Of a stretch of DNA of 64,000 nucleotides, positions 35,742 to 64,000 are shown one piece after another (within the stretch, counting starts at the first letter, position 1; the number at the start of each line of letters is the position of its first letter). Both the position numbers and the translations under genes were made by a program. This DNA is from Dermacentor variabilis (Eukaryota > Arthropoda > Arachnida > Ixodida > Ixodidae), in the NCBI RefSeq assembly GCF_050947875.1, contig NW_027460291.1:26805868-26869867 (forward strand), read 5' to 3'. Under the pieces are notes generated by a model that worked only from the letters and a program-made list of their open reading frames with translations, was not told where the DNA came from and did no database searches.

Positions 35742-35744
35742 CTA

Positions 35745-39776: not shown

Positions 39777-40239
39777 CTACAAAACATACAGGGTTATATC
39801 AAATGTTGAAAATATATATACGACGGCGTTTCATAAGTGGCAAAACAAATGAGTAAACTAATAAACAACTGTAATGTAAACAGAGTACACATCATTGATA
39901 GGCTGTGAACTGGTAATGCATTACGCGAAAAACCTAATGCATAGGAAAGACTATATGTATACACACGAAGTTGACACACAATTTAATTCGCTCTAGGTTT
40001 TCCGTGCAATTTAATATATTCAAATTATTATGTCTCGTGGTTAGAGCGAAATTATTGTAAGTTACGCACCAAGTTATGTAGCCTGGAAAAATTTTTTTAA
40101 GATGCACTTGTGCGTGCTTCGAATGAGTAGCGTTGTAAAATTTACGTACACGGCATTTAACATAGTTGCTGAACACGGATTTCCTTTGCCCTGTGTCATG
40201 TACAGTGAGCTACATACATCCCCCCCCTTATTGTACCAG

Positions 40240-43586: not shown

Positions 43587-43631
43587 TGCTCTTTCTGTTA
43601 AATGGGACCAAAATAAAATGAAGGAAACATG

Positions 43632-43703
43632 TAGCAGAGCGTGGTTTCAATCCACAGGCCTCTAGGATATGGTCTCAGCACGCTCCCGCTGTGCCACTCT
43701 GCT
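43632..43703 (-). pseudogene. Initiator tRNA-Met-like sequence, unit 1
   Basis: The 72-nt minus-strand sequence follows eukaryotic initiator tRNA-Met from AGCAGAGTGGCACAGCGGGA to CCACGCTCTGCTA, with anticodon CAT in loop ACCATAT. The acceptor stem is perfect; one anticodon-stem pair is lost. Probably not functional. Confidence 0.75.
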
Positions 43704-43890
43704 GCTCCTGCATGCTATGTATATTTGCTTATATTTGTAATAAACGAGAGTTTTTTTTTAGGGCGAGAAACATGAGCGTGTAGCGCAAGAGACCATTCCT
43801 CGGAGGGCAATTAGGCCTATAAGACACCAAATTACTGCGCTGATAAGCTCTTTCTCTTAAAGTGGACTAAAATAAAATGAAGGCAACATG

Positions 43891-43962
43891 TAGCAGAGCG
43901 TGGTTTCCATTCACAGGCCTCTGGGTTATGGGCCCAGCACGCTCACGCTGTGCCACTCTGCT
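43891..43962 (-). pseudogene. Initiator tRNA-Met-like sequence, unit 2
   Basis: Acceptor and anticodon arms are intact (CTGGGCCCATAACCCAG), but the T arm reads TGTGAATGGAAACCACG, losing a pair and the invariant C of the B box. Probably a pseudogene. Confidence 0.75.
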
Positions 43963-44151
43963 GTTCCTGCATGCTATGTAAATTTGCTTATATTTGTAAT
44001 AAACGAGAGTAATTTTTTTTAGGGCGAGAAACACGGGCGTGTAGCGCAAGAGATCATTCCTCGGAGGGCAATTAGGACTATAAGACACCAAATTACTGCG
44101 CTGATAAGCCCTTTCCGTTAAATTGGACAAAAATAAAATAAAGGAAACATG

Positions 44152-44223
44152 TAGCAGAGCGTGGTTTTGATCCACGGACCTCTGGGTTATGGGCCCAGCA
44201 CGCTCCCGCAGCGCCACCCTGCT
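44152..44223 (-). tRNA. Initiator tRNA-Met-like sequence downstream of LINE 1
   Basis: All four stems can form (one G-U in the acceptor) and the anticodon is CAT, but the T loop has ATCAAAA in place of ATCGAAA. It directly follows the A-rich 3' end of LINE 1, so its first 14 nt are the 3' copy of the target duplication. It begins AGCAGGGTGGCGCT, two differences from the 5' copy AGCAGAGTGGCGCA. Confidence 0.55.
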
Positions 44224-44338
44224 TTTTTTTTCTTCATTACCTTCTTGGTACATGACACAATGAGAGACATACAGAACACTAATATCGCTTTACAAGTAGA
44301 AGATGCGAGCGGTGCACTGGCCAGCTCACACCAAAGGA

Positions 44339-47300
44339 TTAAAAGCGTTTCAGTTTGGCGAGGTCATCCATTAATGGGAGCCATGCCGGCTGTTCTTTTA
44401 GAGCCTTAAACACATCTCTTACATTAGACACATTTTCAATAATATACTCTCGTACAGGGAGGATAGTTTCATCTGCATGCCTAAACGCCATTCGATTTTT
44501 CCCATATACTGTGTAAGCTGATAAGCATAAACATGTCCCACGGCACTTCGTCTCCGCTATCTACCGCTATCTACCGAGTGATATTGGAAGCTGCTTTTTT
44601 AAAGTTCGTTGCAAGACGTCCCAATAAAATACAGCGTCTGTGCAGAGAAGGAACATATGATCTATAGTCTCCGCTTTTCTACAGATTAGACAGTTTGTCG
44701 ACCATGGTGCAAATATTCCTTTCTCTTGTAGCCATGGTTTCACGGGCAGTGTGCCAGTGTGCAGCTGAAAGAAGAATCGTTTCGTTGAGGGCCACACTGA
44801 CACCTTTTTGACTCTTGAGTACATTCCCTTCAGAGCCAACACAGTATATGGAACGGTACAAAGGTATAGGCAACATAGTTTCAATAAGGTCTTTATAAAG
44901 TTGTTTCCTTCTAACATCAGCAAGATACTGTGCAGAAAAGCGAACTTTCAAACACTGAAAAGCGCGCACAACCTTCCAAAGAAAGCCCCGCACCCGTACG
45001 CGTTTCAAAGGGCTGGATGATACAACACATTCAGGCAGTGCCTCTTTCAACCAAATTTGCATTACCGTACGCAGGAAAGCATCTTTTTGGTCTCGGAGAA
45101 ACATAAATCTTGACACAAGTTGTCTAAGAAACAAATGAGCCCAACCTAGGCCACCGTTACCCGCGCACAGAAAGAGGTTTGTGCGACTTTTCCTCTCCCA
45201 AATCGACCTCCAAATGAGCAGTGCGAAACTCGGTGCAATCTCTGGACGCTGGTCCAGGACATAAACAGTGCCTGGAGAACATACCATACCTTGGCCCCCA
45301 GAAAGAGGTTACATACTGTGGCCCGAGCAAATATTGAAAGATCGCGGCCACCCCATTTGTGCGTACATTCCCGTGTGCGCTCAGTTTCCACTTCCCAATA
45401 TTTGCAGGTTCTCGATAGTGGTCTAGCGGTACTCCCAAGTATTTGACAGGTGACGTTGCCCACTGAACGCTCTCAAACATTTCAGGCCCATAATCTCATT
45501 TTCCGTGCCAGAAACCAAAACACTTTTCCCAGTTTATCACACTTCCGGAGGCTTTGCAAAACCTAGCCGCGTCCTTCACCGCTTCAGTTAGACTTTCCCT
45601 ATCTTCGCAAAAAATGGCGATATCATCCGCATACGCAAGTACTTTAACTTCAGTGGACAACATCGTGCAGCCACGCATTTTTCGTTTGATAATATTTTCA
45701 GGCAAAAAGGTTTGAGATACAGTGCAAACAACAATGAAGACAATGGGCCCCCTTGCCTCACGGAAGAACGAACAGCGATACTTTCACTCAGTTGCTTATT
45801 AACAACTGAGATTTGCCGTACAACCTGCATATGCCATTTTGACACCTTCCAAGAGCACTCGGCCGACATTCACGTGTTCGAGGATACAAAACAGATTATG
45901 GTGGTTGACGCGGTCAAAGGCCTTTTCCATGTCCAGTTGCAACATGGCTACCCGTTCATAATAATAATAAATAATAATGATCATATTAATAATAATAATA
46001 ATAAATCTTAATAATAATAATAATAAATAATCACGTAGCATTCTAATATGCTCCATGCTACGTGATTATTTCTCCTTATCGTGCGTCCTTTAATTCCGCA
46101 GGTTTGGTGCTGGCCTACGATAGCTTTTATTACATTCTGCAACCTTCTGCCCAGAACCTCCAAGAATATCTTATAGTCCACATTCGTGAGTCTTGCGGGC
46201 CGATACCCTCTGACTGACAATCTCTTAACCGGGTCTTCACTCTTCGGAACTAGGACGATGCGACTTCGGAAGGATGGTGGCATCATCTGCTTTTCGTATG
46301 TTTCTTGAATTACGCTGTGTAGAATATGTGCCATATCAGACTTAAACGCTTTGTAAAAAGCTGCGCCCAGCCAGTCGGGACCAGGTGATTTGCCGGAGCT
46401 TAACTCGTCGATTGCGCTCTTTACTTCCGCAGCGCTAATCTATGCCTCGAGCCCCAGCTTGACTTCATCCTCTAAGATAAGCATCAGTGCCAGAAACTGC
46501 GCCGCGTGGCCTTCTTCAACACGTGACTCGTGACCCAGTAGTCCTTCGTAATAATCAACAAACGCACGTTGAATAGTGTTAGAGCCACGAGCCATTTCGC
46601 CCTTGTACTCTATCGCTTTTATCTCGTTCTTTACTGCATATCGCTTTTCGTTGCACAGCGGACCGCTTTGTCGGCGTCTCGCCAAACCACAACCATGCTG
46701 CACGTGCGCATATGACCGCTCCTTTATATTTTTCTTTATCCATGAATTCTAACTTATTTTTGTTTCTTTTATTTCTTTTTTGTACTGGCCCGGCTGAGCA
46801 CTTTCCAACCTCAGCAGCAAATCTAAGCGGCTCTGAGATTTTTTTTTCGTCTGCCTTGTCGCTTTGGCGCAGCGCACTCGCTCTTTCTATAGCGATCATT
46901 TTTATTTCTTCTTTAAAATGTTCCCATTTTCCAATAATATCCCTCTGATCACCAGTTTGCAAACAGTCCATTTTTTTCTTTTACTGTAAACACAAAACGT
47001 TCATCCTCAAGAAGCCTTACATTAAATTTCCATAGTTCCCAGTTGAACTTCGACCTTTTGGTCTTCGTACCTATTGTAAACATTACCATGGAAAGATCTC
47101 TGAACGCAACGTTTTTAATCAAGTAGTCACTGCACATTGGGACCAAGCCAGCAGACTCATAAAACCTGTCAAGTCTTGCATGACTTGCTTGTTGGAAATG
47201 TGTGAACTGCAGACGGGCACCTTCTGTCAGAGCACTCCCGACGTCTTCCAAATTGTGCTCCAGGACAATTGCATTAAAAAGTAACGAGTTCTGGTTTTGA

Positions 47301-47794
47301 ATGGTCGCGTTAGTAACCCTGTCTTCGAGCATGCATACACAGTTGAAGTCACCCATCAGAATGATGTATGTAGGACACTTCAGATAGGGCTGGACCATTT
47401 CGAAGAAAGCTTTGCGCTCATTTTCCTTATTTGGAGCAATACACACACATTACGCGCCACTGTAAATCAAGATACGAAAAATCACACATCACAACACGCC
47501 CGGTGTTGAAAACTGTAACAGATTCTTCAGTAACACCTAAAAAATTTCGAATTAATATGGCACACCCTCCCGACGTACCAACAGAATGACACACGCATAC
47601 ATTGTAACAGCTTCTAAAAGGCTGAACCATGCGGTTCGTCTCACTTCACTTTCCACCTTGGTCTCTTGCACTGCCACTGCGTCCACATCGTTTTCAAGCA
47701 GGAGGCGACTTAATTGATACTGACGCCACCTCGCTGCCAGTCCCCTTACATTAAACGGGGCAAATTTAGGTGCTGCTTCTGTTCTGCCTGCCAT
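44339..47794 (-). pseudogene. LINE 1 ORF2: endonuclease-reverse transcriptase, broken
   Basis: Starts MAGRTEAAPKFAPFNVRG at 47,794. The endonuclease reads NVRG, VQETKVES, then after frameshifts CAILIRN, LMGDFNCV-MLEDR, HARLDR. The RT shows SFRSRIVLVPKSEDP, HQTCGIKGRTI, QLDMEKAFDRV, SVRQGGPLSSLLFALYL and the catalytic VLAYADDIAIFC. The C-terminal part has KYLGVPLDHYR, ICARATVCNLF and the CX2CX7HX4C motif CLICRKAETIDHMFLLC, ending KLKRF at 44,339. An ATT microsatellite interrupts the RT at 45,957-46,028. The protein would nick the tRNA target and prime cDNA synthesis there. Frameshifts near 47.55, 47.44, 46.96, 46.4, 45.7 and 45.2 kb rule out function. Confidence 0.8.
45957..46070. repeat. (ATT)n microsatellite with adjacent 16-bp inverted repeat inside LINE 1 RT
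   Basis: ATAATAATAA-type repeats fill 45,957-46,028. AATAATCACGTAGCAT (46,026-46,041) is repeated in inverted form as ATGCTACGTGATTATT (46,055-46,070) with a 13-nt loop. The latter encodes the NNHVA part of the RT; the former is the extra, inverted copy. Confidence 0.8.
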
Positions 47795-47995
47795 GTGCGC
47801 GACAAATTAAATAGGCCGAGCGGCTTCGTGCTCACCTTCCGCCTTATTACACCGAGAAGTGAAGCTCAAGCAATTTTCCCTTCTCAAGAGTTCTCGAGCC
47901 CACACAAGAGGAGTGCTCGCTTTCTGCAGCAGGCTGGCGCAGCGTCGGCGCGCTGGTCGTCGTAGTCCCGTTGTGTGGGTCGCCTGTCGTCCCTT

Positions 47996-49204
47996 TCAAG
48001 CCAGAAGGGAGCAATGGTTGCTACGTCGGTGTAGTCTTGACCGGCTTTTGGTCCGGCGGGATGTTGGGCTTCGGGTGAAACGTCGGCCGGCGCTGCCCTC
48101 CCGATTAGGGGGTGGTTCGTCGATACTCGCAGAAGGATGTTGAACCTCTTCGACACAGGCCTTGTCGTGTGTTTTCTTTTCTGGAGCACTACTCATGCTT
48201 GGTTGGATGACGTCCATGCCTTCTCCCTCCTCTTGAGGTTTTCCGCGTACTGCTTCCGTAGGAGTACTTGTGCTTAGTTCAGCTGCATCAATCTTCGAGG
48301 CTACAACAGCCTGCTTCGACCCAGTGGTATGGTCTTCAGTCTGTGTCGCTGCCGCGCCCCCCTTGACGTCGTTAGGCGCTGCCTGCGGCGTATTCTTTTC
48401 TGCAGTTTTCGCTGCCTCCTCGGATTCGTCCGCATCCATGAGTAGTTCGGAGTCGTCTTCTCCTCTCATGTGCCCTGTCACATTTTCGTACGTTTTGACG
48501 CACTGCGATTGGTCATGGCCGAAGCGATGGCACTGACTGCAACGGGGAACTTTGCATTCACGTCGGACGTGTCGTGAGGTATGGCACGTTAGGCAACGCG
48601 GCGCTCTTCCAGGAACCACAACGAGGGTGTGCTCTTCAGCAATGCATAGCTGGTGAGGCAGGTCCTCAATTGTAACTCCAGGCTTCAACTTCAAGGACAC
48701 ACAACGCGTTGACGAACCTTTGTCCATGACTCCCTGAACGCGCCAGCTATCCTTGGCGACTTCCGTCACCGTTCCGTAAGGTGCAAAGGCTGTTCGCACA
48801 TCTTCGACTTGCACGTTGTACAAAGTCCAGTGGAACTTCATCCTCACGTCCTGGTCATCCTGATCAATGACAATGCACCGTCGTTCTTTAACAGTCACTT
48901 CACGGACTGAAAGCAGCTTCTTCATTCCTTCAACACTCTTGAACGTGATAGCCCAGATGTGATTCATTTGGCACGCCCCCAAGGCGACAACATCGGGGAG
49001 CACTGCCAAACGAACCAGTGCGTCGCAAAAGTCCTCGACCGTGTAGGGCCTTGCTCTGACGTCGGCGTGCAAAAACAGCGTATTTACAATAATTCGACGT
49101 CTTGGTAGCCGCGGCAAAATAACTTCATAATCCTGGTCACTCGAGCCAGCAAACCTGTTTCCACGGCCAAGCTGGGCCGCTGATACCGCTCCGTTGGAGC
49201 ACAT
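47996..49204 (-). CDS. LINE 1 ORF1: nucleic-acid-binding protein with CCHC knuckles
   Basis: Open from ATGTGCTCC (49,204), a start conserved in LINEs 2 and 3, for 402 residues. The first ~190 residues form a compact alpha/beta region (VNTLFLHADVRARPYTVEDF near residue 40). Two CX2CX4HX4C knuckles follow, CLTCHTSRHVRREC and CSQCHRFGHDQSQC near 205-235, then an acidic and Ser/Pro-rich tail. In Tx1/L1 elements ORF1 protein coats element RNA and acts as chaperone. The last ~25 residues (TKSRSRLHRRSNHCSLLA) differ from the KPxPN-type tails of the other copies, suggesting a late frameshift. This is the only ORF1 in the window without an early stop. Confidence 0.75.
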   Translation of the reverse strand: MCSNGAVSAAQLGRGNRFAGSSDQDYEVILPRLPRRRIIVNTLFLHADVRARPYTVEDFCDALVRLAVLPDVVALGACQMNHIWAITFKSVEGMKKLLSVREVTVKERRCIVIDQDDQDVRMKFHWTLYNVQVEDVRTAFAPYGTVTEVAKDSWRVQGVMDKGSSTRCVSLKLKPGVTIEDLPHQLCIAEEHTLVVVPGRAPRCLTCHTSRHVRRECKVPRCSQCHRFGHDQSQCVKTYENVTGHMRGEDDSELLMDADESEEAAKTAEKNTPQAAPNDVKGGAAATQTEDHTTGSKQAVVASKIDAAELSTSTPTEAVRGKPQEEGEGMDVIQPSMSSAPEKKTHDKACVEEVQHPSASIDEPPPNREGSAGRRFTRSPTSRRTKSRSRLHRRSNHCSLLA

Positions 49205-49246
49205 GATACGCACGTCCGTCACGCTCGGTGGCCAGAAGTGGAATGC

Positions 49247-49526
49247 TGCGCCACTCTGCTGCTCCTGCACGCTATGTAAATTTGTTTATATTTGTAATAA
49301 ACGAGAGTAATCTTTCTTTTTTTAGGGCGAGAAACACGAGCGTGTAGCACAAGAGAGCACTTCTCGGAGGGTAATTAGGGCTATAAGACACCAAATTACT
49401 GCGCTGATAAGCTCTTTCTCTTAAATACGACCAAAATAAATTAAAGGAAACATGTAGCAGCGCGCGGTTTCGATCCACGGACCTCTGGGTTATGGGCACA
49501 GCACGCTTCCACTGCGCCACTCTGCT
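49247..49526 (-). repeat. tRNA-iMet unit between LINEs 1 and 2
   Basis: Holds, on the minus strand, the tRNA regenerated behind LINE 2 (49,455-49,526), one spacer, and the 14-nt tRNA head TGCGCCACTCTGCT (plus-strand view, 49,247-49,260) that forms the 5' target duplication of LINE 1. Confidence 0.8.
49455..49526 (-). pseudogene. Initiator tRNA-Met-like sequence downstream of LINE 2
   Basis: Anticodon CAT retained, but one acceptor pair (A6 against G67) and one anticodon-stem pair are lost. Abuts the A-rich end of LINE 2. Confidence 0.75.
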
Positions 49527-49621
49527 TTCTTTTTCTTTATTACCTTATGATGAACATTGTACAAACATAACAGCAAACAAAAATGCATCAAATCCCTAGC
49601 CATTCGTCTGGTTCGTATGTT

Positions 49622-52600
49622 TTAAAATGGCTTAATTTTGCCCAATTCATCGAAAACAGTAATCCACTCCGGAGGATCATTTAGTGCCTTATAAACATCT
49701 CTAATATTGATGACAGCTTCTACGAAATAGTGTCTTGCCGATGGGGATACAAATGCGCATGTCTGACGTCCATTCTTGTTCGCCAGATACAGTGCATGCA
49801 CATGACCATGAGCATATCACTGGGTACTCCTTCTAGTTCAGCACAAGGTAAGTACCGAATTCCGAAAGGCTTAAAGGCAGATCTTTTTTTAAAGTCCTTT
49901 GAATACATCGCATAGGAACATCGCGTCATGGCAGTCAAGAAAAACATGTTCAAGTGTTTCCGGTTTTCTACAAATTGAGCAATTGTCAGACCAAGGAACA
50001 AAAAGGCCTTTGCTGTGTAACCGTGGCTTCACAGGTATTGTGCCGGTATGCAGTTCGAAAAAGAAAGATTTCATTGAAGGTTTCACCGGCATTCGCTTAA
50101 TACGCTTGAGGACGTCACGCTCAGGGCCCAGCTGGTACAACCCACGGTACACAGTAATCGGCAAAAAAACATCAAGCAGGTCTTTGTATAAACGCTTACG
50201 TGTCACACTCGTTAGGTATTCATAGGAGAATCTTGCCCTAAGAATCTGCACCTAACATACAAGTTCTCGTAAATAGCCAGATAAGACTGCTGGCCTCAAA
50301 CAATACGTGGATATTACGTAGTGTCGCCAGGAATCCTGTAAGCGCACTTGGATTACACTTCGAAGAAAAACGTCAGTCTGTTCACGCAAGAAAAAACAAT
50401 CTCGTCGCAATCTGTTCGAACAATAAATGCGATAGTCCCAAGCCCCCGTTTCTAACTTGATGAAAAAGGTTGCAACGGCTCATGCGCTCCCAAGTGGACC
50501 CCCAGATAAAAACTGCAAAGACCCTATGCAGATTTTGTACGGAAACTCTAGTAATTCACCTGCATCACATAATACAACTTAGCAATTAGAAACATATTAC
50601 AAAGAGCGGCTCTTGAAAACATAGAAAAATTATGTCCCCCCCATTTTTCTGTTTGTAGCTTAACTCGTCCTGCTTCTTCTGCCCAATAATCCTTGCTATC
50701 CTTATAATGTTTCAGTGGAACTTCCAAACACCTATCCGGAGTGGTGTTCCATTGTATGTTGCACAACGTGTCTGGAGCGTGTTCCCAGTTGCCATGCCAG
50801 AAGCCAAAACATTTTTACCAACTAATCAAGCTTCCTGTTGCTGTAAAAAAATCCTTAGCCTCTTGTACAACTTCACGCACGCTTCTTTCATCTTCGCAAA
50901 ATGCTGCAATATCGTCAGCGTAAGCAAGGACCTTAACTTCAGTATTGAAAAAAGTGTAGCCACGAATAATTGGATTTGCAAGTACTTTTAAACAAAAGGG
51001 AGCGAGGTAAACATCAAAAAGGAGGGATGATAAACAACAGCCTTGTTTTACAGAAGTTCCAACGCAAATACTTTCACTCAGTTTCCTATTATTCACAAGT
51101 TTCACTGTACATTTGTCATACACCATTTTCACGCCCTCTAGAACTAAAGGTCCTACATTGACGCGGTTCAGTATAAGGAACAATATTTCGCGCACGACTC
51201 TGTCAAATGCCTTATTCAAATCTAGTTGAAGCATTGCAACTCGATCGTGCATGGCATCGCAACATTCAAGAACAGTTCTTGCTACATGGAGTTTTGTAAG
51301 AATAGATGTTCCTTTAATTCCGCATGTCTGATGCGGACCTACAAGGGACTTTACAACACTTTGGAAATGGTGAGACAAAACTTTCATGAAGACCTTGTAA
51401 TCAGTATTCTTTAAACTTACCTGTCAGTATGTTTCTACTGAAAGCAGTTTGACCGGGTCATTAGTTTTCGAAATGAGTATGACGTGGTATGTTCGAAAGG
51501 ACGGTGGTGTTAGTTTCTTTTCAAAGCACTCTTCAATAACTAGGTGTAGAAATTCTGCCATTTCAATTTTGAAGAACTTATATACAGCTACCCCGAGACC
51601 ATCTGGGCCAGGTAATTTACCAGGACTGAGATCGTCTATGGCCTGCTCAACTTCTGCGACTGCTATTGGCCTTTCAAGTGACTGTTTTGTCTCGTCATCG
51701 AGACTATGCATGAGCGGCAGAAAAACACTTCGAAACCATTCAGTATCGCATGCTTTATGACTAAAAAGTTCTCTGTAATATTCAAAAAAGGCACATTCTA
51801 TCATTTCACTCTCTCGAGTAACGTTATTTTGAAAACTGATTTCACTAATTTACTTCGATACTGCATGTCTCTCCTCATCGCTGAGCGCGCGCTTTGTGGG
51901 CGTCTCACCCAACCATAGCCGCTAGCACCGCGCCCTTATCATTGCGCTGCGATACTTTTCTGTTTCTATGATCTCAAGCATCGCCTTTACTTCTTTTATT
52001 TCTCTCGAGAACAACCCGGGCTTAGCATTGTCTGCGCTGACCATGAATTCTAACGCAATATGTAGCTCCTTTTCTTGCTGTTTTTCTTTCTGCCTTAATA
52101 TACTCGCTCTTTCCAAAGCGGCGATATTGAAGTCGATCTTGAACTGTTCCCACACCGCTATAAAATTACATGTTTGGTTCAGCTGCATACTGTTTATATA
52201 TTCCTTTATCTTTGCAACAAAAATTTCATCCTTTAGTAATTTGTTGTTGAATTTCCACAACTCCCCGTTGAACCTAGACTATTTTTTCTTTGCACCTAAA
52301 GTAATCATGACTAAGCAGTGATCTCTAAAGCTCACATGCTGCGTATGGTACTGGGGACACCAAGGTACAAATTCAGCAGGCACATAAATTCGATCCAATC
52401 TAGCATGAGACACATTCTGAAAGTGAGTGTATTTTGCTTGGTCTTCATGCGTACACACTAAGCCAATATCTTCGAGTTCATTCTCGTCAATAATTACGCG
52501 TAATACTTCTGCACTTTTATCTCTCTGGTTTCTGTTACTAGATCGATCTTCAGATCGACGTACGCAGTTGAAGTCGCCAAGAAGTAATACACTCCTTTCG

Positions 52601-53016
52601 CCTTCTAGACAAGGTCGCACAGTATTAAAAAAATTTTGCCGCTCATTGATTCTATTCGGTGCATAGACACAAACAGCACGCCAGGCAATTTCAGCAAACA
52701 CAAAATCACAAAATACTAGCCGGCCATTTTCGCTACTAGACACAGAGTCAATAACCCCAATGCTTTTTCGAATAAAGATAGCACAACCACCGGACCTACC
52801 AACTGCATGACTCACGCATACATTATATCTGCTACGGAAGACTTCAGCCATTTTATCAGTAAGTTCTTCACTCTCAATTTTGGTCTCTTGGATCGCTACC
52901 AAGTCTACATCATTTTCTAAGAGAATGCGACTTAGCTGACCTTGCCGTCTTCGTGCAGAAAGGCCTCTTGAAATAAAAATTGCGATGCGCAAGGCATTTT
53001 TAAGGTTTACTGCCAT
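49622..53016 (-). pseudogene. LINE 2 ORF2: endonuclease-reverse transcriptase, broken
   Basis: Starts MAVNLKNALRIAIFISRGLS at 53,016. The endonuclease is complete in one frame: IQETKIES, GGCAIFIR, LLGDFNCVRRSEDRS, HARLDRIYVP, FRDHCLV. In-frame stops follow at about 52,276, 51,919, 51,838, 51,421 and 50,812, while the frame itself stays open to about 50,548, so most damage is point mutation. RT motifs: PGPDGLGVAVYKF, HQTCGIKGTS, QLDLNKAFDRV, SVKQGCCLSSLLFDVYL and VLAYADDIAAFC. A frameshift lies between 50.55 and 50.25 kb, then CSICRKPETLEHVFLDC gives the C-terminal CX2CX7HX4C motif. Confidence 0.8.
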
Positions 53017-53184
53017 ATCAGGTTGACATTATTGCCAATATTTTACTCACTTTTATACGTCAAACAGGGGCATGGGCTGACAAGGCTTCCATATATGTGG
53101 CTGTGCAGGGTATTAACGCGAACAAGTACTCCGCTGACAGAGCGAGGTTGTGCAATGGAAGAAAAAAGAAAGAAAAAGCTGTCG

Positions 53185-54380
53185 CTAAGAAGGCGGCAGT
53201 TTTGAATTAGTCCGTCGGGCCGGCGCAAGGTTTGGCGTTGGCTTGAAAGGCTGCCGTCTGGACGTTGCAGCCTCTGTGGGAGGGTCTCCGGAGCTTGTTA
53301 CATCACCTCTTGCAGAAGTGTCTCCAGTTTCCTCTCGGGTTCTCGTTGCAGGTCCGTTGCCAGACGCTGCCATATCGACATCTGTGGAAATTTCCTCAGT
53401 GGTTTTCTTGTTTTCCGGAAGAGAATCGCTGATGTGGTCTTGGGTGCTGTTCGCGTCTTCTTTCGATGTGTCCAGGCTCACTACGGTAGCGATAGGCCCA
53501 GGTTCTTCCTAGCTACTCGGCTCGTTGGCGTCTCCGCCTGGGGTGTACAGAAGCACTGCTGCCTCAGTCTTTCCTTCCTCGCCATGTTCTTTGGTAGCTT
53601 CTTCTGAATCAACTGCGTCCATCATGTGCTCGGAAACCAAGTCCCTCCGGGCTGGGCCTGCTACGCTGGCGTAAGAGCGCACGCACTGGGTCTCGTCGTG
53701 GCCATAGCGACGACAGAGGCCGCAACGTGGAACACGGCATTCCTGACGTATGTGGCCGATGCCGCGGCACCGGAGCCAGAGGAGAGCTCTGCCTGGAACG
53801 CGGACGAGTGCGACATCTTCAGCAACACGCAATTGATGAGGCAAATCTTCGATGGTGATGCCCACTTTCAGTTTTAGTGTTACAGAGCGCGTTGTTGATC
53901 CTTTATCAATGCATCCTTTCACCTTCCATTTCTCTCTTGTGATTTCAGTCACTTTTCCGAAGACCTCCAGAGCCGTTCGCACATCGTCGTCCGGCACACC
54001 ATGGAGTAGCCTGTAGAGCTTCAGGCGTACTCCTCTGTCGCAGGGGTCTATAACCACGCAGCCCTCATTCTTGACATTGAAGGTGTCTGCAGCCAGTATG
54101 TTCTTTCCTTCCTCGTCCTTAAACGTCACTTCCCACAGGAGATTCATTTGGTACGCCGCAAAGGCAACCACCACCGGTAGCAGTGAAAGACGGTCCAGTG
54201 CGTCGCGGATGTGCTCGCAGTGATACGGCCTTTCCTTTAGGCAACCATGCAAAAAACCGTATTCAAAACGGAATCACCTGTGGGCAGATCCGGCAAAACA
54301 ACGTGGTAATATTCAGCCTGTTTGTCAGAAGACCTAGTTCCGCGGCCATTGGCCGCTGTAACCGCTCCAAGGGAGCACAT
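53185..54380 (-). pseudogene. LINE 2 ORF1, one frameshift and one stop
   Basis: Starts MCSLGAVTAANGRG at 54,380. A frameshift near 54,250 moves the reading to the frame LHGCLKERPYHCEHIRDALD, and an in-frame TAG at about 53,506-53,508 precedes the disordered tail that ends LAPARRTNSKLPPS. The two knuckles are RCRGIGHIRQEC (first Cys replaced by Trp-Leu context, LLWLRCRGIGH) and CGLCRRYGHDETQC. Loss of the first cysteine in knuckle 1 is a further defect. Confidence 0.75.
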
Positions 54381-54422
54381 GCTTGCACGACCGTTCACTG
54401 CGGTGTCCGGAAGTGGAATCGT

Positions 54423-54701
54423 TGCGCCACTCTGCTGCTCCTGCATGCTATACAAATTTGTTTATATTTGTAATAAACGAGAGTAGTCTTTTTTCTTTAT
54501 GGCGAGAAACACGAGCGCGTAGCACAAGAGAGCACTTCTCGGAGGGCAATTAGGGCTATGAGACACCAAATTACTGCGCTTATAAGCTCTTTCTGTTACA
54601 TGGGACCAAAATAAAATGAAAGAAACATGTAGCAGATCGTGGTTTCGATCCACGGACCTCTGGGTTTTGGGTCCAGCACGCTTCCGCAGCGCCACTCTGC
54701 G
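54423..54701 (-). repeat. tRNA-iMet unit between LINEs 2 and 3
   Basis: Same layout as the unit between LINEs 1 and 2: tRNA behind LINE 3, one spacer, and the 14-nt head duplicated at the 5' end of LINE 2. Confidence 0.8.
54630..54701 (-). pseudogene. Initiator tRNA-like sequence with CAA anticodon, downstream of LINE 3
   Basis: The iMet body is kept, but the anticodon loop reads CCCAAAA, changing CAT to CAA, and the stem CTGGA/CCCAG loses a pair. The first base is C and the LINE 3 junction carries two extra bases (GC). A decayed copy rather than a real tRNA-Leu. Confidence 0.7.
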
Positions 54702-54808
54702 GCTTTTTTTTTCTTTATTGCTATTTCACAAATGAAAACAAAAAGATCAAATACACGACATGTACATATGCTAAAGACACCAGCCACAGCTCGGCCAGTG
54801 TAAGGCGT

Positions 54809-57800
54809 TTAAAAGGGCTTCACAGAAGCCAATTGGTCTAGTACCGGTAGCCATTCCGGGGGTTCACATAGTGCTCTGAACAAGTCGCGTGTGTATATTA
54901 TACTCTCAACAAAATAGTGTCTTGCTGAGTGAGCCTGTGTATGACGATGCCTGATATCCATTCTCGTCTTCCATACGCTATGCATACAAAGCAGCATTAG
55001 CATATCACTCGGCACTTCCTCTGTTTCTGCACGTGGAAGAAACTGGATTCCAAAAGGGCTTATCGGCAACTCTTCTTTAAGTGTTCTTTGTAGGACGTCC
55101 CACAGAAATACGGTGTCATGGCAGTCAAGGCAAATATGCTCTATTGTTTCCGGCTTATTACAGATTAAGCAGTTTACCGACCAAGGTACAAAATGACCTT
55201 TACTTTGTAACCATGGCTTTACAGGGAGAGTGTCGGTATGTAGTTGAAAAAAGAACGTTTTAACAGACGGTCTCACTGGCATTTTTTAACACGCTTTTGC
55301 ACATCGCACTCAGGACCTAGCCTGTAGGCAGCTTGGTAAACCAGTAATGGTAAAAATACATCAAGAATATCAGAATACAAACGCTTTTTCGTGACATCAC
55401 ACAAGTATTCATATGAAAACCTTGCCTGGAGCAGGCGTACAGAAGTAACCACTTCACGCAAATAATGATTGAGCGGTCCAGCTCCCAAAGAAACATATGA
55501 TACGACAAAGTCAGATAGATAATCCTGCAATCCAGCTTGGATCACAGTTCTCAAAAACACATCAGTTTGGTACCGCACAAAGAAGAATCTGCTCACCAGC
55601 TGCTTGAAAAATAGGTGTGAGAGCCCTAGCCCACCATTTTTCACCTTATGCAACAAATTGCACCGGCTTGTGCGTTCCCATTGCGATCCCCAATGAAAGA
55701 TCGCAAACACTCTGTGTATTTTCTGAACCGAAGTTCTTGCCATGGTCATCGCTCGCAACACGTAGAACACTTTTGCAATTAAAAAAATATTACAAACGGA
55801 AGATCTTGCAAACATGGAAATGTTATGGCGACCCCATTTATCGGTAGCACTTTTGACGCGTTTATTTTCCTCAGACCAATATTCCTCAGCATTGCGGTAG
55901 TTATTTAGTGAGACACCGAGGTACTTTCCGGGCAGACGGTCCAATTCATGTAACAGTACGCCACGGGTGTGCTCTGCCAGTTGCCATGCCAAAATCCAAG
56001 GCATTTCGGCCAACTGATTGCGCTACCAGTTTCTGTGCAGAACGCCTTAGCAACACTGAAAACTTCCTGCACGCTTCTTGCATCAGTGCAAAACACGGCT
56101 ATGTCGTCCGCGTAGGCTGAGACCTTAATTTCACTGCTCAGAAACGCGTAGCCTCGAATACATGGTGTTGCAAACAAACGTAAACAAAACGGCTCCAGGT
56201 ATATTGCAAAAAGCAGAGGGGACAACGCACATCCGTGTTTCACGCTCGACCGTACAGGAATTTACATAAATAATTCTTTGTTGATGACTAATTTGGCTGT
56301 GCAATCGTGATACAACATTTTAACACCTTCAGTAATTACAGATCAAACATTTACGTGTTCCAGCAATAAAAACAGAACTTCATGTACCACTTTGGCGAAC
56401 GCTTTATGTAAGTCTAGCTGAATCATAGCTACGCGATCATGCACTGTGTCACAACATTCCAGAATACTTCTTGCTGTGTGTATGTTTGTAAAAATTGTTC
56501 TGCCTTTAATGCCACAGGTCTGATGCAGGCCAACAATGGACTTATAACGTTTTGGAGCCTTCTAGATAACACCTTCATGTATATCTTATAATCTGTATTG
56601 GTCAAACTAATGGGATGGTGGGACTCAACTGAAAGTAATTTTGCAGGATCGTCAGTTTTGGGGATCATCACTACGTGCGCTCTCCTGAACGAGAGAGGCG
56701 GTTGCTTTTTTCATAGCATTGAGCGATCACTCGGTATAAAGCCACTGCTATTTCTACCTTAACAAATTGCATATGGCTGAACCCAGTCCATCTGGGCCAG
56801 GTGACTTTCCATGACCTAAGTCATCAATCGCTGCTTCAATTTCGGCCACCCTAATTTGAGATTCCATTGATTCTCTAACCGTGTCCTCTAACCTTTGCAT
56901 AAGCGCCAGAAAGTGGGTTTTGAACTACTCGGGGTCAAATCCTTACTTCTAGAAGGTTGGTATAATATTCAACAAAAGCAAGTTTTATCTCTTCACTTTG
57001 TCGTGTAACTTTGTTGCGATATCGAATTTCATTTATCTCCATATTTGCAGCATGTTTCTTTTCTGCACTACGCACACGCTTAGTGGGCGTTTCGCCCAGC
57101 CATAACTTTTCAGTGCGGGCCCTTATCATTGCGCCACGGTACTTATCTTCGTCGACCAACTCGAGTTTTGCTTTCACCTCTCGTATTTCTTTTTTAAACG
57201 CTCCAGGCACTTCATGTTCAACCCCTAACATGTACACCAGCAAACTGTGTAACTGTTTCTCTTGTTGCCTTTCCTTGTGACGCAATACACATGCTCTATC
57301 GATGGCAGCAATTTTAATGTCGCATTTAAACTGCTCCCACACTGATATGAAACTGTTGGTTTCCGTATCCAGGGCATCTGAAAGATACTCCTTGGATCTC
57401 GTGACAAACACTTCATCTTGCAGCAGTTTTTCATTTAACTTCCACAGGAACCAATTAAACTTTACACTCTTTGGTTTTTCGCCAATCGTAATCGAGACCA
57501 AAATATGATCGCTAAAACTGAGATATTGTGTTTCATAAGAGGAACACAGTGGTACAAACTTCGCCAGTATGTATATTCTATCAATCCTCGCATGGGAATC
57601 ACCTTGAAAGTGCGTATATCGTGCTTGGCCATCTCGCGTCATTGCATAACCAATGTCCTCAAGCGCTCTCTCAATTACTATCGCGTTCAACAGCTCAGCG
57701 CTTCTATCGCGTACTTTGGGGCTCGTCGTTTTATCTTCAGCTGCACAGACGCCTCCCCCCCCCCAATTGAAGTAACCAAGAAACACAACATGTCGTTCTG

Positions 57801-58214
57801 TTTTCAAAAACCCTTCAGCATACTTAAAAAAAAACACCTTCATGATTTTTGTTCGGTGCGTAGATGCACACAGCGCGCTACAGTAGTCCCGGAAAAATAA
57901 AATCACATGCGACAAGTCTCCCACTTTCGCAGGTGGACACTTTTTCAACAACCGATATGCTCTTGCGAATAAAAAGACGCAGCCTCCTGGCCGTCCAACA
58001 ACATGACACACACACATACACTGTATCTAGAGCGAAAAACTTGAACCACTTGTTCTGTTTGCTCCTCACTCTCAATTTTTGTTTCTTGTACAGCCAGCAG
58101 GTCAACGTCATTCTCTAAAAGCATGCGACTATTCTGGCATTGCCGCCTGGGCGAACACATTCCTCGCACATTCAATGTCGCAACGCGTAGGCTAGATTTC
58201 AAGTTAGCCGCCAT
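54809..58214 (-). pseudogene. LINE 3 ORF2: endonuclease-reverse transcriptase, broken
   Basis: Starts MAANLKSSLRVATLNVRGM at 58,214 with VQETKIES. A frameshift near 58.0 kb follows, then FLGYFNWGGGGVCAAEDK (the GDFN motif changed to GYFN, a catalytic-site loss), HARIDRIYI and FSDHILV, and the linker to about 56,940. RT pieces: KTDDPAKLLSVESHHPISLT, LFAIYLEPFCLRL and VSAYADDIAVFC. The C-terminal half is better kept, with KYLGVSLNNYRNAEEYWSE, MFARSSVCNIFLI and CLICNKPETIEHICLDC, ending DQLASVKPF. At least five frameshifts. Confidence 0.8.
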
Positions 58215-58305
58215 CTCATGGGGTTGCTTGGCCAAGCGTCCTACTCACATCGAAACTGTGGGGTTCTTGTGGTCATCGTTGAAGGCCGCTAGAACGGGTC
58301 CTCCG

Positions 58306-59496
58306 CTAGGGCGGAGGCGTTTTAGGGGCCACTCTACTGCCAGGCGGCACGTTCGGCTTTGGTTTAAGCAAAGACCGCCGCGTAGTCGATGCCTTCGGTG
58401 GAGATTCGCCGGTGCCTGACGCAGTAGTTCTTCCTGCAATGCCAGTGTCTTCGTGAGCGCGCTTTGCGGCGATGCTTCCGGCTATGAGCATCTCGACGTC
58501 CGTTGCTTCCTGGCCAACTTCTTGTGGCAGTGACGATGACGCGCTTGCTGCATTCACGCCTGCGTCACATGTTGCAGTCTCTGGCTTCGTTTCCGGGGCT
58601 GCAGCCAAGGGCACATCCCCTAGGTTCGCTTCCTGGACAGCTCCTCGGGAGGGCTGAAGGGGCTTTGCAGGAGGCTTCGCCACGTCGTTGTCCTCCCTGC
58701 TAGCTTCTTCGGCATCTGCGGCGTCCATCAGGTGTTCGGATACCACGTCCCTTTGGAGTGGGCCTGTAACGCTGGCATAAGAGCGCACACATTGGGAATT
58801 ATTGTGGCCGAAGCGACGACAGACCCCACATCGCGGAACGCGGCACTCTCGCCGGATGTGTCCGATGCCACGGCATCGGAGGCAGAGCGGCGCTCTGCCA
58901 GGATCGAAGACCAGCGCCATATCCTCAGCAACACGCAGTTGGTGTGGTAGGTCATCCACAGTAAGGCCTAGATTTAATTTCAGCGTCACCGAGCGGGTGG
59001 CTGATCCTTTGTAGATGGAGCCCTTGACCTTTCACTTGTCTCTGCTGATTTCCGTCACTTTTCCAAACGGCGCCAAAGCCACTCGCACGTCTTCGTCCGG
59101 CACGCCATGAAGCAGACAGTATAGCTTTAGTCGGACACCTCGGTCGCGCGGGTCGATGACCATGCAGCGGTGGTCTTTAACGTTGAACGCTTCAGCTTCT
59201 AATATCTTCATCTTGCTTTCCTCATCCTTAAACGTCACTGCCCACAGGTGATTGATTTGGTATGCCCCGAGGGCAACCACTTCCGGCAGCGACGAAAGAC
59301 GTGCAAGGCTATCTCGGACATGCTCCACTCGATACGGCCTGGCTTTCACATCGGCATGCAAAAAAACGGTGTTTAAAACAGAAGCACCTGTGGGCACATG
59401 AGGCAGAACAACCTGGTAATCTTCAGCCGGCTTTTCAGTACACCTGATACCACGGCCCACAGGGGCCGTTTAAACCGCCCCTACAAGGGAGCACAT
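58306..59496 (-). pseudogene. LINE 3 ORF1, two in-frame stops
   Basis: Starts at the conserved ATGTGCTCC (59,496). TAA at 59,470-59,472 and TGA at 59,029-59,031 (Trp codon in other copies) interrupt an otherwise single open frame to 58,306. The N-terminal region has VLNTVFLHADVKARPYRVEH; the knuckles CLRCRGIGHIRREC and CGVCRRFGHNNSQC are both intact. The tail is Ala/Pro/Ser-rich. Best preserved pair of knuckles in the window. Confidence 0.8.
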
Positions 59497-59740
59497 GATA
59501 GCACGTCCGCACGCTGTGAAGGCCGGAAGTAGAATGCGCCACTCTGCTGCTCCTGCATCCTATGTAAACTTGTTTATATTTCTAAAAAACGAGAGTAGCC
59601 TTTTTTTTGAGGGCGAGAAACACTAGCGCGCAGCACAAGAGAGCATTTCTCGGGGGGCAATTAGGGCTATATGACACAAAATTACTGCGCAGATGTGCGC
59701 TTTCTGGTAAATGGTACCAAAATAAAATAAACGAAACATG

Positions 59741-59812
59741 TAGCAGAGCGTGGTTTCGATCCACAGACCTCTGGGTTATGGGCCCAGCAGGCTTCCTCTG
59801 CGCCACTCTGCT
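59741..59812 (-). tRNA. Initiator tRNA-Met-like sequence, uninterrupted unit
   Basis: Acceptor stem AGCAGAG/CTCTGCT and anticodon arm CTGGGCCCATAACCCAG are perfect, T stem has one G-U, T loop ATCGAAA is canonical for initiator tRNA. The only clear defect is a D-stem mismatch (C11 against C24). Not directly behind a LINE, so it shows the uninvaded target. Confidence 0.6.
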
Positions 59813-60011
59813 GCTCCTGCATGGTATGTAAATTTGTTTATATTTGTAATAAACTAGAGTAGTCCTTTTTTTTTTTTTTGAGGGCGAGAAACACTAGCGC
59901 GCAGCACAAGAGAGCATTTCTCGGGGGGCAATCAGGGCTATAAGACACCAAATTACTGCGCTGATATGCTCTTTCTGTTAAATGGGAGCAAAATAAAATG
60001 AATAAAACATG

Positions 60012-60083
60012 TAGCAGAGCGTGGTTTCGACCCACGGACCTCTGGGTTATGGGCCCAGCACGCTTCCGCTGCACCACTCTGCT
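60012..60083 (-). tRNA. Initiator tRNA-Met-like sequence downstream of LINE 4, all stems paired
   Basis: Every stem pairs, with one U-G in the D stem. The anticodon arm CTGGGCCCATAACCCAG is intact with CAT, and the T arm CGTGG-GTCGAAA-CCACG differs from the initiator norm mainly by G for A at position 54. CGTGG/CCACG replaces the usual GATGG/CCATC with pairing maintained. Internal promoter boxes TGGTGCAGCGG and GGGTCGAAACC look usable and TTTT occurs about 20 nt downstream (TTCATTTTATTTTG). It directly follows the A-rich end of LINE 4. It is the best candidate for an expressed tRNA in the window. Confidence 0.6.
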
Positions 60084-60136
60084 GTTTTTTTTTGTTTATT
60101 ACATTTCTCAGGCTTACATACATAAGGTAATTAAAA

Positions 60137-60161
60137 ACGCTTGCCCGCTTTGGGCAAGCGT
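60137..60161. repeat. Perfect hairpin in the 3' UTR of LINE 4
   Basis: ACGCTTGCCC, a five-base loop, then GGGCAAGCGT, located between the ORF2 stop at 60,168 and the A-rich end. It is not seen in the corresponding place in LINEs 1-3. Confidence 0.85.
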
Positions 60162-60167
60162 GGGTAT

Positions 60168-63100
60168 TTAAAAACGCTTCAGGTTGACAAGAGCATCTAA
60201 TACAGGCTTCCATGCTAGTGGATCAATATGTGCTTTATACATCTCACGAATAAACGCGATACTTTCTTTGAAGTACTCTCTGGCTGGCTCGGCGTTCATA
60301 TCTGCATGATACACTGCCATTCTTGTTTTCCAGATGCTGTGAAGACATAAAGCGATAAAAATGTCATACGGCACCCCTTCATCATTATCTGTTGGGAGGA
60401 AGCGGATGCCATATGGGGTAATCGGTAACTCTTTTTTTAAAGTACGTTGCAATATGTCCCATAAGAAGGGGGCATCTACGCAATCAAGAAATATATGGTC
60501 CATAGTTTCTGGCTGCTTGCACAATAAGCAGTTTATCGTCCAAGGCACGAAGATACCCTTCTGCTCTAACCACGGCTTAACGGGCAGAGGTCCGGTGTGC
60601 AAGTAAAAGAAGAACGTTTTCACCGTGGACCGTACTGGCATCAGCTTCACCCTTTTCAGTACGTCTTTGCCTGCTCCTGTTGACAACATGGTGCGATACA
60701 GTGGTTTTGGCATACATACATCAACAACGTCTTTGTGCAGTTTCTTTCGTGTGACATTGCTTAGATACTGTAAAGAGAACCGTGCCGCGAGAAACTCGTA
60801 AGACCAGATGACTTCTTGCAGGAAGCCTCGTACTTTCGGCCAATCAACCCGATCAGACGACACAATAAACGCTGGCATAACGTCACACAATCGCATTTGA
60901 ATCACAGTACGTAGGAAAGCATTGCTTTGCTCTCGCATAAAGATAAATCTGGACACTACCTGTTTTAGAAACAAATGCGCCAAGCCCAGTCCGCCACTTT
61001 TCACTGAACGGGATAAATTTATACGGCTTGTACGTTCCCAAGTTGATCCCCATGTATACACTGCTGGCACCCTGTGGAGTGTTTGAATGCTTGCTCTCGT
61101 CGCACACAGTACTTGCAGAACGTACGAAATCTTGGCTACAAGAAAATGGTTACATACTGTTGACGTTGCAAATATAAATAAGTCTCTCCCTCTAAATTTG
61201 GTTGATTATTTTTTTATTTGTTCCGCTTCATTTCTCCAATAATCACTAGTGTCTTTGTAGGGATTTAAAGGCACCCCAAGGTATTTCGTTGGCGAAACCG
61301 TCCACTGCACGCTTTCAAAGACGTCCGGGGTATCTTTCCATTACCCATGCCAAAAGCCCAAAGATTTGCTCCAGTTGATAACGCTTCCGGTCACTTTACA
61401 AAAACTCTTCGCCACACTGATGGCATTCCTGACACTTTCTTGGTCAGAACAGAAAACTGCAATATTGTCAGCGTACGTAAGTAGCTTAAACTCGCTTGTG
61501 CTCAACCTAAAACCTTTTATTGCACTCGGTGACAAGATTTTCAAATAGAAAGGCTCCAGGTACAGCGCGAATAGTAAAGGAGACAAAGGGCATCCTTGCC
61601 TAACAGAGGACTTTATCTGAAAACAGGCAGTTAATGATTTATTAATTTTAATCCTGCTAGCAATGTCTGCGTAACAGATTTCTATACTTTCTGATACGAC
61701 CTTCCCGACATTGATGTGTTCTAGAATGTTGAAAATGACATTATGCACAACTCTGTCGAATGCCTTCTCTAAATCCATTTGTACCATAGCGACCTTCCCG
61801 CAGTACGCATCACAGCACTGCAGCACGGTTCTAGCCACGTGCATGTTTGTTACAACGGACCTTCCTTTTATGGCACAAGTCTGATGCGGCCCCACAAGCC
61901 TGGTTATAACACTTTGCAGTCTCCTACCCAAAACTTTAGCGAAGATCTCGTAGTCCGTGTTCGTTAGAGTTATCGGTCGATACGCTCGTACAGAGAGCAA
62001 GGCAGCTGGATCCTCTGTTTTTGGAAAAAGTACAACATGGCTGTGCCTGAAAGAAGGAGGCAACTTCTTTGTTCTGTATGCCTTCTTTATTACGTTATGC
62101 AGGGACGTGCTATCTCCGTTTTAAAAGCCTTGTAGAATTCTGAACCAAAACCATCGGGGCCTGGCGATTTCCCTCCACTCAATTCATCAATTGCCCCCTG
62201 AATTTATGCAACGCTGATTGGTGCTTCAAGATTCGTTTTAACTTCTGCTTCAAGTTTTGGCATGTGTCTCAAGAATTCGCTTTGAAAACCTTCCACAATC
62301 TGTGGTTCGTGGCCAAGTAAATCCCGCTAATAATCAACAAATGTGCGACGTTTCAGTTCCTCGTCTTGCACAACTTCATCTCTGTACATTATCACTTTTA
62401 TTTCGTTGCGCGACGCATAGCTTTTTTCATCTGATAGAACGCGTTTGGTAGGGGTTTCACCCATATACACTTTTTCCGCACGCGCTCGTACAACTGCGCC
62501 CCTGTACTTTTCTGTATTAATAATTTCTAGTTTGCTTTTAATTTCTTTTATTTCTCTGGTAAAGTTAGCCGGGGCTGTAGCTTCTGCATTCAAATAAAAA
62601 TCAAGCTGGCTTCGGAGTTCAGTTTCTTCTTTATTTTGCTTCCTCCGCAAAGCCCCGGCTCTTTCGATGGCTGAGAGTTTTGCGTTTTCCTTAAAATGTT
62701 CGCATGCCTGCGCATAACAATCCGGTTCATTTGCCAGTTGGTCTCCAATTTTTCCTTTTGTTTCCTTTCTATATACCTCATCAATGAGGAATTTAAAATT
62801 GCATTTCCACAGCTGCCAGTTAAATTTCGACGGTTTCCTCGGACCTAGCGCACACACAACCAAACTATGGTCGCTAAAGAAAATGTTTTTAATGTCATAC
62901 TTATTGCAGACGGGTGGCATATCTGCCGAAACATGAATACGATCTAATCTAGCGTGGCTGACCCTCTGGTATTGGGTAAACCGAAGCAATGTGCCATTTG
63001 ACAGGAAGCACCGTACATCTTCTAACAGGTGACCTTCAGTCAGCGCATTTAGTACTGACACACTCGCATCTCGTATCGGTGCATCTTTTGTCCTGTCTTC

Positions 63101-63568
63101 TACTCTGCCTACGCAATTAAAGTCCGCCATCATTATAATTGCCCTGTCACAATTCAGATAATGTTCAACACTTTCAAAAAACAATCTGCGTTCACTTGGT
63201 GCATCTGGGCCATGTAAACAAACTATTCGGAACTTCTGGGCTTGCAACGTTTTGTCACGTACAATAAATCGTCCAGTGTCAGACGCGTACACACTATCAA
63301 CAGATATGCCTGTGGAGTGCTTCAAGAACAGCGTACAACCACCGGCTATACCTAGTGCATGCGCAACGCATACATTGTAGTACGCCATAAAAGGTTCAAC
63401 CATGCGGTTTGTTCCTTCCTGACTTTCGATCTTCGTTTCCTGTATGGCAATTACGTCCAATTCATTTTCCATAAAAAGTCGACTCAGCTGGTATTGTTTT
63501 CTCTGTGTCGACAGGCCCCGCACGTCAAGAGTGCCTACATAAAGAGGCGTTTGGAGAGAAACAGCCAT
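60168..63568 (-). pseudogene. LINE 4 ORF2: endonuclease-reverse transcriptase with YADN active site
   Basis: Starts MAVSLQTPLYVGTLDVRGLS at 63,568. The endonuclease is open in one frame: IQETKIES, GGCTLFLK, MMADFNCVGRVEDRT, HARLDRIHVS, FSDHSLV. A TAG at about 62,324 and a TAA near 62,201 then interrupt it, and a frameshift near 62.1 kb precedes the RT: HQTCAIKGRSV, QMDLEKAFDRVV, SVRQGCPLSPLLFALYLEPF. The catalytic loop is LLTYADNIAVFC, with Asn for the second Asp. Stops at about 61,338 and 61,214 follow, then an open C-terminal 300 residues with CLLCKQPETMDHIFLDC, ending DALVNLKRF. Confidence 0.85.
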
Positions 63569-63766
63569 TTTTTTATGAACACAAACCGCATAGTATCCCT
63601 TGCTTATCACAAGACGGCAAAACACTCACACTTTTATAGAAAAACCCAGTCGTTCCAGCCATTTTGATTAGAATTTAGACTTCGCCCTGACGACGTCAAC
63701 GCACTGTCTTTCCGGTCCCTTCCGCTGATAGTGGCCGGTTGGAAAAAAGGAAGGCTCGACACCTTT

Positions 63767-64000
63767 TCACGTCGCCGGCGGGGCCGGCGGTTTTTGCTCG
63801 GGCCGTGGCTCGAGCAGTATTTTCGGTGCGGGTTTAAATGTGGTCCTTCGATGGGGTGTCGTTTTCACAGGCGGCCCATCCGTTGTATTCTCGTCGGTCT
63901 TGTGCCCTTCTTTGCCGTCCTCATAGAGTCGTTTTGGTGCAGGGCAGCTGCTACATGCCATAACAACGTCTGCAGTCTCAGGGCTTTGCTCGACACTCGC
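63767..64000 (-). pseudogene. LINE 4 ORF1, C-terminal tail only (partial)
   Basis: The frame is open to the window edge and ends in a basic, Pro-rich tail (RRTTFKPAPKILLEPRPEQK and PPAPPAT), the same type of ending as ORF1 of LINEs 2 and 3. The zinc knuckles would lie beyond 64,000. About 200 bp separate it from the ORF2 start, as in the other copies. Confidence 0.6.

Follow-up and report, generated by a model that had tools for sequence, protein, structure and literature searches.

A lineage of long interspersed nuclear elements (LINEs) in the tick Dermacentor variabilis, of the L1 type and with an endonuclease of the apurinic/apyrimidinic (APE) type, appears to target the whole class of tRNA-type RNA polymerase III (Pol III) genes, probably through docking on their promoter complex, a reading to which we assign a probability of about 0.8. 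The stretch under study (the window: 64,000 nucleotides, positions 26,805,868 to 26,869,867 of contig NW_027460291.1, here C43) is part of a 2.48-Gb genome in 605 contigs and includes a tandem array of initiator tRNA-Met (iMet) units interspersed with four such LINEs. An earlier note on this DNA had proposed an animal LINE lineage whose endonuclease is specific for iMet. The animal lineage, its APE-type endonuclease and a real target preference are borne out, but specificity for iMet is not: no copy among the 40 read outside the array lies at iMet, several other tRNA targets being used instead. The window's array is thus one of several tRNA loci used by the lineage.

LINEs in the initiator tRNA-Met array

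Between 43.6 and 64.0 kb, the minus strand of the window carries seven iMet units of ~260-280 bp, the last of them shortened, together with four LINEs whose bodies all share the orientation of the tRNAs. LINE 1 (44224-49246), LINE 2 (49527-54422) and LINE 3 (54702-59534) are full length, and LINE 4 (60084-64000) has its 5' end past the window. The open reading frames (ORFs) of LINEs 2 and 3 are broken; in LINE 1 the ORF2 frames are interrupted and ORF1 is open (402 amino acids, 47996-49204), and in LINE 4 ORF2 is broken with its endonuclease part open. Each visible LINE has at its 5' end a stub of ~14 tRNA bases (bases 1-14, at 49247-49260, 54423-54436 and 59535-59548 upstream of LINEs 1, 2 and 3, respectively) and at its 3' end a poly(A)-like tail that abuts base 1 of a complete tRNA, with two extra bases for LINE 3. 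The tRNA 5' end is therefore doubled around each visible LINE, resembling a target-site duplication.

The tRNAs downstream of LINE 1 (44152-44223), LINE 2 (49455-49526) and LINE 4 (60012-60083), along with that of the next array unit (59741-59812), receive iMet calls. Downstream of LINE 3 lies an iMet-like tRNA (54630-54701) with 32.9 bits in Rfam and no ARAGORN call, and the final two units, where the array ends (43588-43962), are diverged and fall below the Rfam threshold. Altogether, ARAGORN calls tRNA-Met(CAT) for four window units and Rfam calls five. Allowing up to two mismatches, the window has 11 occurrences of the 14-mer AGCAGAGTGGCGCA against 0.48 expected, and none of 100 shuffles reaches 11. 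Coordinates, both tRNA searches and the 14-mer test thus agree with the earlier description of four minus-strand LINEs lying in iMet sequences in one orientation.

With the adjoining 200 kb added, the joined stretch measures 264 kb (up to 27,069,867) and holds 151 iMet units, 37 of which match the consensus exactly, with 33 interruptions longer than 400 bp. By protein matches, 32 of the 33 are LINEs of the lineage in tRNA orientation, one of which (26962484) consists of 7,500 N among 7,854 bases and has an ORF2 match of 154 bits; the remaining interruption is a run of N. The array itself (26.85-27.07 Mb, L017-L036) extends past the joined stretch.

We hand-picked 31 array junctions, omitting one insertion whose stub has four mismatches (26928216) and the N-filled interruption. 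The stubs end at tRNA base 13 (2), 14 (11), 15 (6), 16 (3), 17 (1), 18 (3), 19 (4) or 21 (1). The idea that the 5' ends follow base 14 consequently holds as the typical case but not as an exact rule, and even the stub of LINE 1 is readable to base 16. That of LINE 4, outside the window at contig position 26,870,881, is readable to base 19 with three mismatches in its first 14. Similarly, 3' ends at tRNA base 1 describe the window LINEs but are not fixed, since by eye the 31 LINE-downstream units of the array fall into GC|AGCAG, C|AGCAG, |AGCAG and AAAAGAG classes. Base 14 itself is T for the usual A in the units after LINE 1 and LINE 3 (window 44210 and 54688).

A test independent of the junctions gives the same picture: 27 of 28 ORF1 starts in the array adjoin the iMet 14-mer (0-4 mismatches), the exceptional start belonging to the rear portion of an ORF1 that another element has split, and 31 of 32 ORF2 ends are followed by the 14-mer no more than 420 nt beyond, the exception being interrupted by foreign sequence. 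Two 5'-truncated array copies (1.4 and 2.1 kb) have the same junction as full-length ones, which fits the expectation of target-primed reverse transcription. In two copies both ORFs are open (407 and 1131 amino acids, 401 and 1133 amino acids).

One scenario that might explain such an array starts from one or a few LINE-bearing units, multiplied within tRNA arrays by unequal crossing-over and gene conversion. Seven array LINE pairs are indeed 93.6-99.8% identical (merging them leaves 25 elements), and among them are the LINEs of the four-LINE block of the window and of its copy ~79 kb off on the contig, at 26.93-26.95 Mb. At 93.6-95.5% identity per LINE, this copy indicates that the block was duplicated as a whole, even though its four LINEs are mutually independent. 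Regularly spaced LINE copies on contig C11 also speak for spread. However, pairwise identity in the window is 84.9-91.5% for the tRNA units and 53.9-63.8% for the four LINEs; being far more diverged than their units, the LINEs represent separate insertions, the independence that the earlier note had assumed. Moreover, copies 97.8-98.4% identical within one array family carry stubs of 16, 18 and 21 bases, which would be best explained by separate insertions, truncated copies have the same junction, and one family is found in unrelated tRNA genes on several contigs. As the sole cause, duplication is refuted by the LINE and unit identities and the stub lengths, and we regard an origin by unit spread as scarcely credible; as an added process it is supported. 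The array, filled with LINEs, doubles as a record of insertion and homogenisation through time.

Targets outside the array

Of 80 listed copies outside the array, 40 had their 3' flanks read. A tRNA gene follows the tail in 23; in 14 it is a tRNA-like repeat containing A and B boxes, in one a weaker tRNA-like sequence, and in two there is no tRNA. At least ten isotypes are used over the 40 copies, the targets being Asn, Asp, Val, Ser, His, Gly, Pro, Leu, Phe, Thr-like and elongator-Met-like. The earlier note would have abandoned its idea had most other copies lain at unrelated sites; strictly speaking they do not, given that 38 of the 40 lie at a tRNA gene or tRNA-like sequence.

A whole-genome search with P0001, a close relative of window LINE 3, yielded 97,569 first-look candidates, of which 41 were scored, and 42 listed matches, none of them on C43. 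Among the 20 matches whose 3' flank was read, four lie at tRNA-Asn(GTT) and one at tRNA-Asp(GTC) according to ARAGORN and Rfam, 14 at a tRNA-like repeat that has A/B-box motifs and no tRNA call from either program, and one (L049) at a sequence that is tRNA-like by eye only. The target's 5' part is repeated at the LINE 5' end in 14 of the 20; five lack the repeat in the stretch read, and in L060 the 5' stretch is the end of an adjacent LINE in tandem. In its 3' untranslated region (UTR), window LINE 3 shares 90-92% identity with L042-L050, against 65-78% with the eight other copies compared. As the L042-L050 targets comprise the tRNA-like repeat, tRNA-Asn, tRNA-Asp and the L049 sequence, a single family evidently uses at least four target types. 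We also considered whether the tRNA-like sequence might be the LINE's own 3' end, and rejected this because different tRNAs follow one family's 3' UTR.

These observations bear directly on specificity for iMet. All lineage LINEs within the 264 kb sit in iMet units, as such specificity would predict, yet no sampled copy elsewhere lies at iMet and the family of window LINE 3 also occurs at tRNA-Asn, tRNA-Asp and tRNA-like repeats. For the lineage, restriction to iMet is contradicted, and we give it almost no weight; single young subfamilies may be confined to iMet.

A second genome search, with P0065 (a close relative of the young array copies), returned 92,891 candidates, 41 of them scored. We read 20 copies, deliberately excluding three inside the iMet array, and scanned with Rfam 18 of the 20 flanks together with sequence lying beyond the remaining two. 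In 16 of the 20, Rfam reports a tRNA that reaches its gathering score. ARAGORN names 12 tRNAs (Asn, Val, Ser, His, Gly, Pro, Leu and one unassigned with a CAT-like anticodon loop), and tRNAs without an ARAGORN name read by eye as Leu, Thr-like and Asp.

Of the 40 flanks, the 22 in which Rfam finds a tRNA were used to measure junction offsets. In 20 of these 22, the base directly following the tail corresponds to tRNA position -8 to +10, the others being at -34 and +25, and LINE and tRNA share a strand in every case. Could such a pattern arise if insertion were random and only copies beside tRNA genes survived selection? Readable copies are survivors only, which lends this idea some appeal. However, most DNA of a 2.48-Gb genome would be expected to tolerate insertions, 20 of the 22 measured junctions fall inside ~20 bp, and 14 of the 20 P0001-like copies lie at one place of a tRNA-like repeat, where selection is unlikely. 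We consider a survival filter very improbable. Instead, the location at tRNA starts likely reflects active targeting that would often leave the tRNA gene usable.

Several points weigh against targeting of tRNA-type genes as a class. The genome searches sampled best-scoring, mostly intact copies, with 82 scored of ~190,000 first-look candidates. Two of the 20 P0065-like copies (L098 and L099) have no tRNA at the junction; two are joined to an inner part of tRNA-Phe, at bases 26 and 31 in the numbering of what we take to be a standard tRNA-Phe, and for one of these (L088) the Rfam score of 27.2 bits is below gathering; a further copy lies 34 bp upstream of its tRNA. The dispersed iMet genes on contigs C2 and C6 are without a LINE in eight of eight cases, meaning that an identical 5' sequence is by itself no guarantee of insertion. 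Finally, LINE-downstream iMet units in the array still read as tRNA-Met in 18 of 31 cases, compared to 105 of 120 for other units. Preservation of the tRNA after insertion is therefore a tendency rather than a rule, and it often fails.

Some features of these loci merit separate mention. Several flanks with the tRNA-like repeat (L042-L044, L050-L060) share a longer body that ends near TTAACGCTATCGCGTTAA and has no tRNA call. On contig C11 (103.737-103.770 Mb; L060, L080), LINE copies recur at multiples of ~4.92 kb, corresponding to LINE plus target in tandem. C43 carries a second dense LINE cluster at 38.20-38.39 Mb (L087, L088), with ends joined to inner tRNA-Phe.

Proteins and phylogeny of the lineage

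In Pfam, LINE 4 matches Exo_endo_phos (the APE-type endonuclease) and zf-RVT (a zinc-binding tail of the reverse transcriptase), with two other ORFs giving no match; RVT_1 is precomputed on most listed ORF2 homologues. ORF2 of LINE 2 has 550 relatives at E <= 0.001, the best at 61% identity. Among the 120 matches listed, most are unnamed and the named ones are Ixodes proteins plus one labelled Anaplasma sp. MAG (metagenome-assembled genome; P0114), which is related to the lineage ORF2 and probably stems from tick DNA that was binned with bacterial sequence. For ORF1 there are 159 relatives, and of the 120 listed those with a name come from Dermacentor, Rhipicephalus, Amblyomma, Haemaphysalis and Ixodes; many tick-genome 'uncharacterized proteins' (P0121-P0240) resemble it. 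A distant-member query adds further Ixodes proteins and a relative from the soft tick Ornithodoros (P0260), its remaining matches falling to ~32% identity and including two mammalian proteins. In a search of genome contigs, query A1 found eight weak bacterial loci, with 22-30% identity to the endonuclease part, and viral contigs matched neither this query nor a junction pattern. We also looked for tRNA-coded residues at the N-termini of 120 ORF1 proteins, which proved uninformative as most begin at a native Met.

Across 30 ORF2 proteins, the catalytic columns of endonuclease and reverse transcriptase (RT) show little or no variation. The ORF2 model (mean pLDDT 85.7) matches human L1 ORF2p along its length, and by sequence the PDB matches include L1 ORF2p at 3.7e-74 versus R2 at 1.6e-29; no R1, jockey or Tx1 RT is among them. 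The first half of the ORF1 model, which is of modest quality (pLDDT 62.9), resembles paired RNA recognition motif (RRM) domains and is followed by cysteine-histidine knuckles whose C and H columns are invariant. Endonuclease, RT, catalytic columns, predicted fold and PDB match together fit an APE-type LINE of the wider L1 group.

An RT tree of 129 sequences, covering tick-type proteins and near relatives and with six short array copies dropped, places 26 array copies in both large subclades, among proteins from other sources that include one of Ixodes scapularis (P0027). With array copies in both, tRNA targeting likely predates these two subclades.

Elsewhere in the window, positions 12369-26303 and 26300-40240 form a 13.9-kb tandem duplication at 99.93% identity, either a recent duplication or an assembly error, and each copy contains a 0.5-kb stretch (12558-13077 and 26489-27008) with an 85% match to its own reverse complement. 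An RT remnant of another LINE type lies on the plus strand at 1951-2886 (21.6% identity to P0056, 57.8 bits).

Proposed docking at Pol III promoters and known parallels

How might these LINEs find their targets? Insertions of the lineage share an orientation, show duplicated 5' ends, finish in poly(A)-rich sequence and in some cases retain open reading frames, and the feature common to their targets is the A-box region. Suppose that the LINE machinery is positioned by docking on Pol III factors and does not read A-box DNA directly. The endonuclease would then introduce a nick in the antisense strand close to tRNA base 1, at iMet with a wobble over ~six bases that would yield the four classes of 3' junction, and the poly(A) RNA of the LINE would be copied from the nick by target-primed reverse transcription. 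A second nick, 13-21 bases into the gene, would duplicate the 5' part of the tRNA. The benefit would be that duplication of the first bases restores, beyond the 3' end of the insert, a tRNA gene complete with internal promoter; because tRNA promoters are internal to the gene, the rebuilt tRNA could remain transcribed.

Alternatively, the endonuclease itself might read A-box DNA (core GTGGCNCA and relatives) with no Pol III factor involved. The motif GTGGC[GT]CA just inside the junction is common to iMet, Asn and the repeat, for which the junction is also nearly constant per target, and for other site-specific LINEs recognition of the DNA itself has been put forward in print (PMC3706591). However, His, Gly, Pro, Phe and Asp targets have little junction sequence in common, the offset from tRNA base 1 ranges from -34 to +31, and the eight empty iMet genes have the identical 5' end. 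Direct reading is a serious but less probable alternative, to which we would grant perhaps a third of the weight. A junction that is near-fixed per target but shifts between isotypes makes docking at the Pol III promoter complex, combined with a local nick preference, the model that we prefer.

The fullest version of this account is an old, still productive L1-type tick lineage that lands on all tRNA-type Pol III promoters, in tRNA genes and tRNA-like repeats alike, and docks at the Pol III initiation complex, nicking next to base 1, with many insertions rebuilding the downstream tRNA gene. It would be the first class-wide tRNA-targeting LINE lineage of an animal, parallel to the TREs and Ty3. 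We hold this whole to be a little better than an even bet. In searches of open-access literature we found no case of class-wide tRNA targeting by an animal LINE. In amoebae and yeasts such targeting has been explained by compact genomes (PMC5006619). The same pattern in a 2.5-Gb animal genome, and in an L1-type element, questions that explanation, and the tick lineage offers a natural example of L1-like machinery directed to particular sites.

LINEs at tRNA genes also occur in the NeSL clade, where NeSL-1_TV uses tRNA-Pro and, in an animal, a planarian, LIN15_SM and LIN25_SM use tRNA-Arg and tRNA-Glu, with one tRNA per family and a restriction-like endonuclease (PMC4640811). The tick LINEs differ in that their endonuclease is APE-type and one family uses several tRNAs. 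Tx1-clade LINEs include Keno, which targets U2, and Mutsu, which targets 5S rRNA genes; to our knowledge, the described families have one target each. The tick lineage shares with this clade (Tx1L, Keno, Mutsu) an APE-type endonuclease, the ORF1 plus ORF2 layout and multicopy RNA-gene targets, but a tick family uses several targets, as the LINE 3 family does with iMet, Asn, Asp and tRNA-like repeats. The Tx1 clade is mentioned in PMC4640811. Dada DNA transposons also target tRNA and small nuclear RNA (snRNA) genes of animals, with 6-7 bp duplications (PMC3706591, PMC8869645). They are set apart by a DDE transposase and by a single gene of its own for each family.

In its choice of targets, the lineage resembles the dictyostelid non-LTR (long terminal repeat) elements TRE5, TRE3 and Dp_NLTR-A, which use many tRNA isotypes as a class. 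In the compact amoeba genomes, TRE5 inserts ~50 bp upstream and TRE3 ~100 bp downstream of tRNA genes and Dp_NLTR-A, which has an RNase H domain, is found 2-6 bp upstream; TRE5-A requires the B box, and its ORF1 protein binds a TFIIIB subunit in vitro (PMC5006619, PMC5391098). The tick lineage likewise uses many isotypes, at a position set relative to the tRNA gene (the 20 of 22 noted above). Unlike the dictyostelid elements, it does so in a large animal genome with an L1-like ORF2, usually joins the tRNA at its 5' end, duplicates the 5' part and also uses tRNA-like repeats; in contrast to Dp_NLTR-A, no RNase H domain is among the Pfam matches listed for it. TFIIIB guides yeast Ty3 to positions immediately 5' of tRNA genes as a class (PMC5006619). 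Ty3 and the tick lineage are thus both class-wide at tRNA genes, although Ty3 is an LTR element that works with an integrase and without target-primed reverse transcription.

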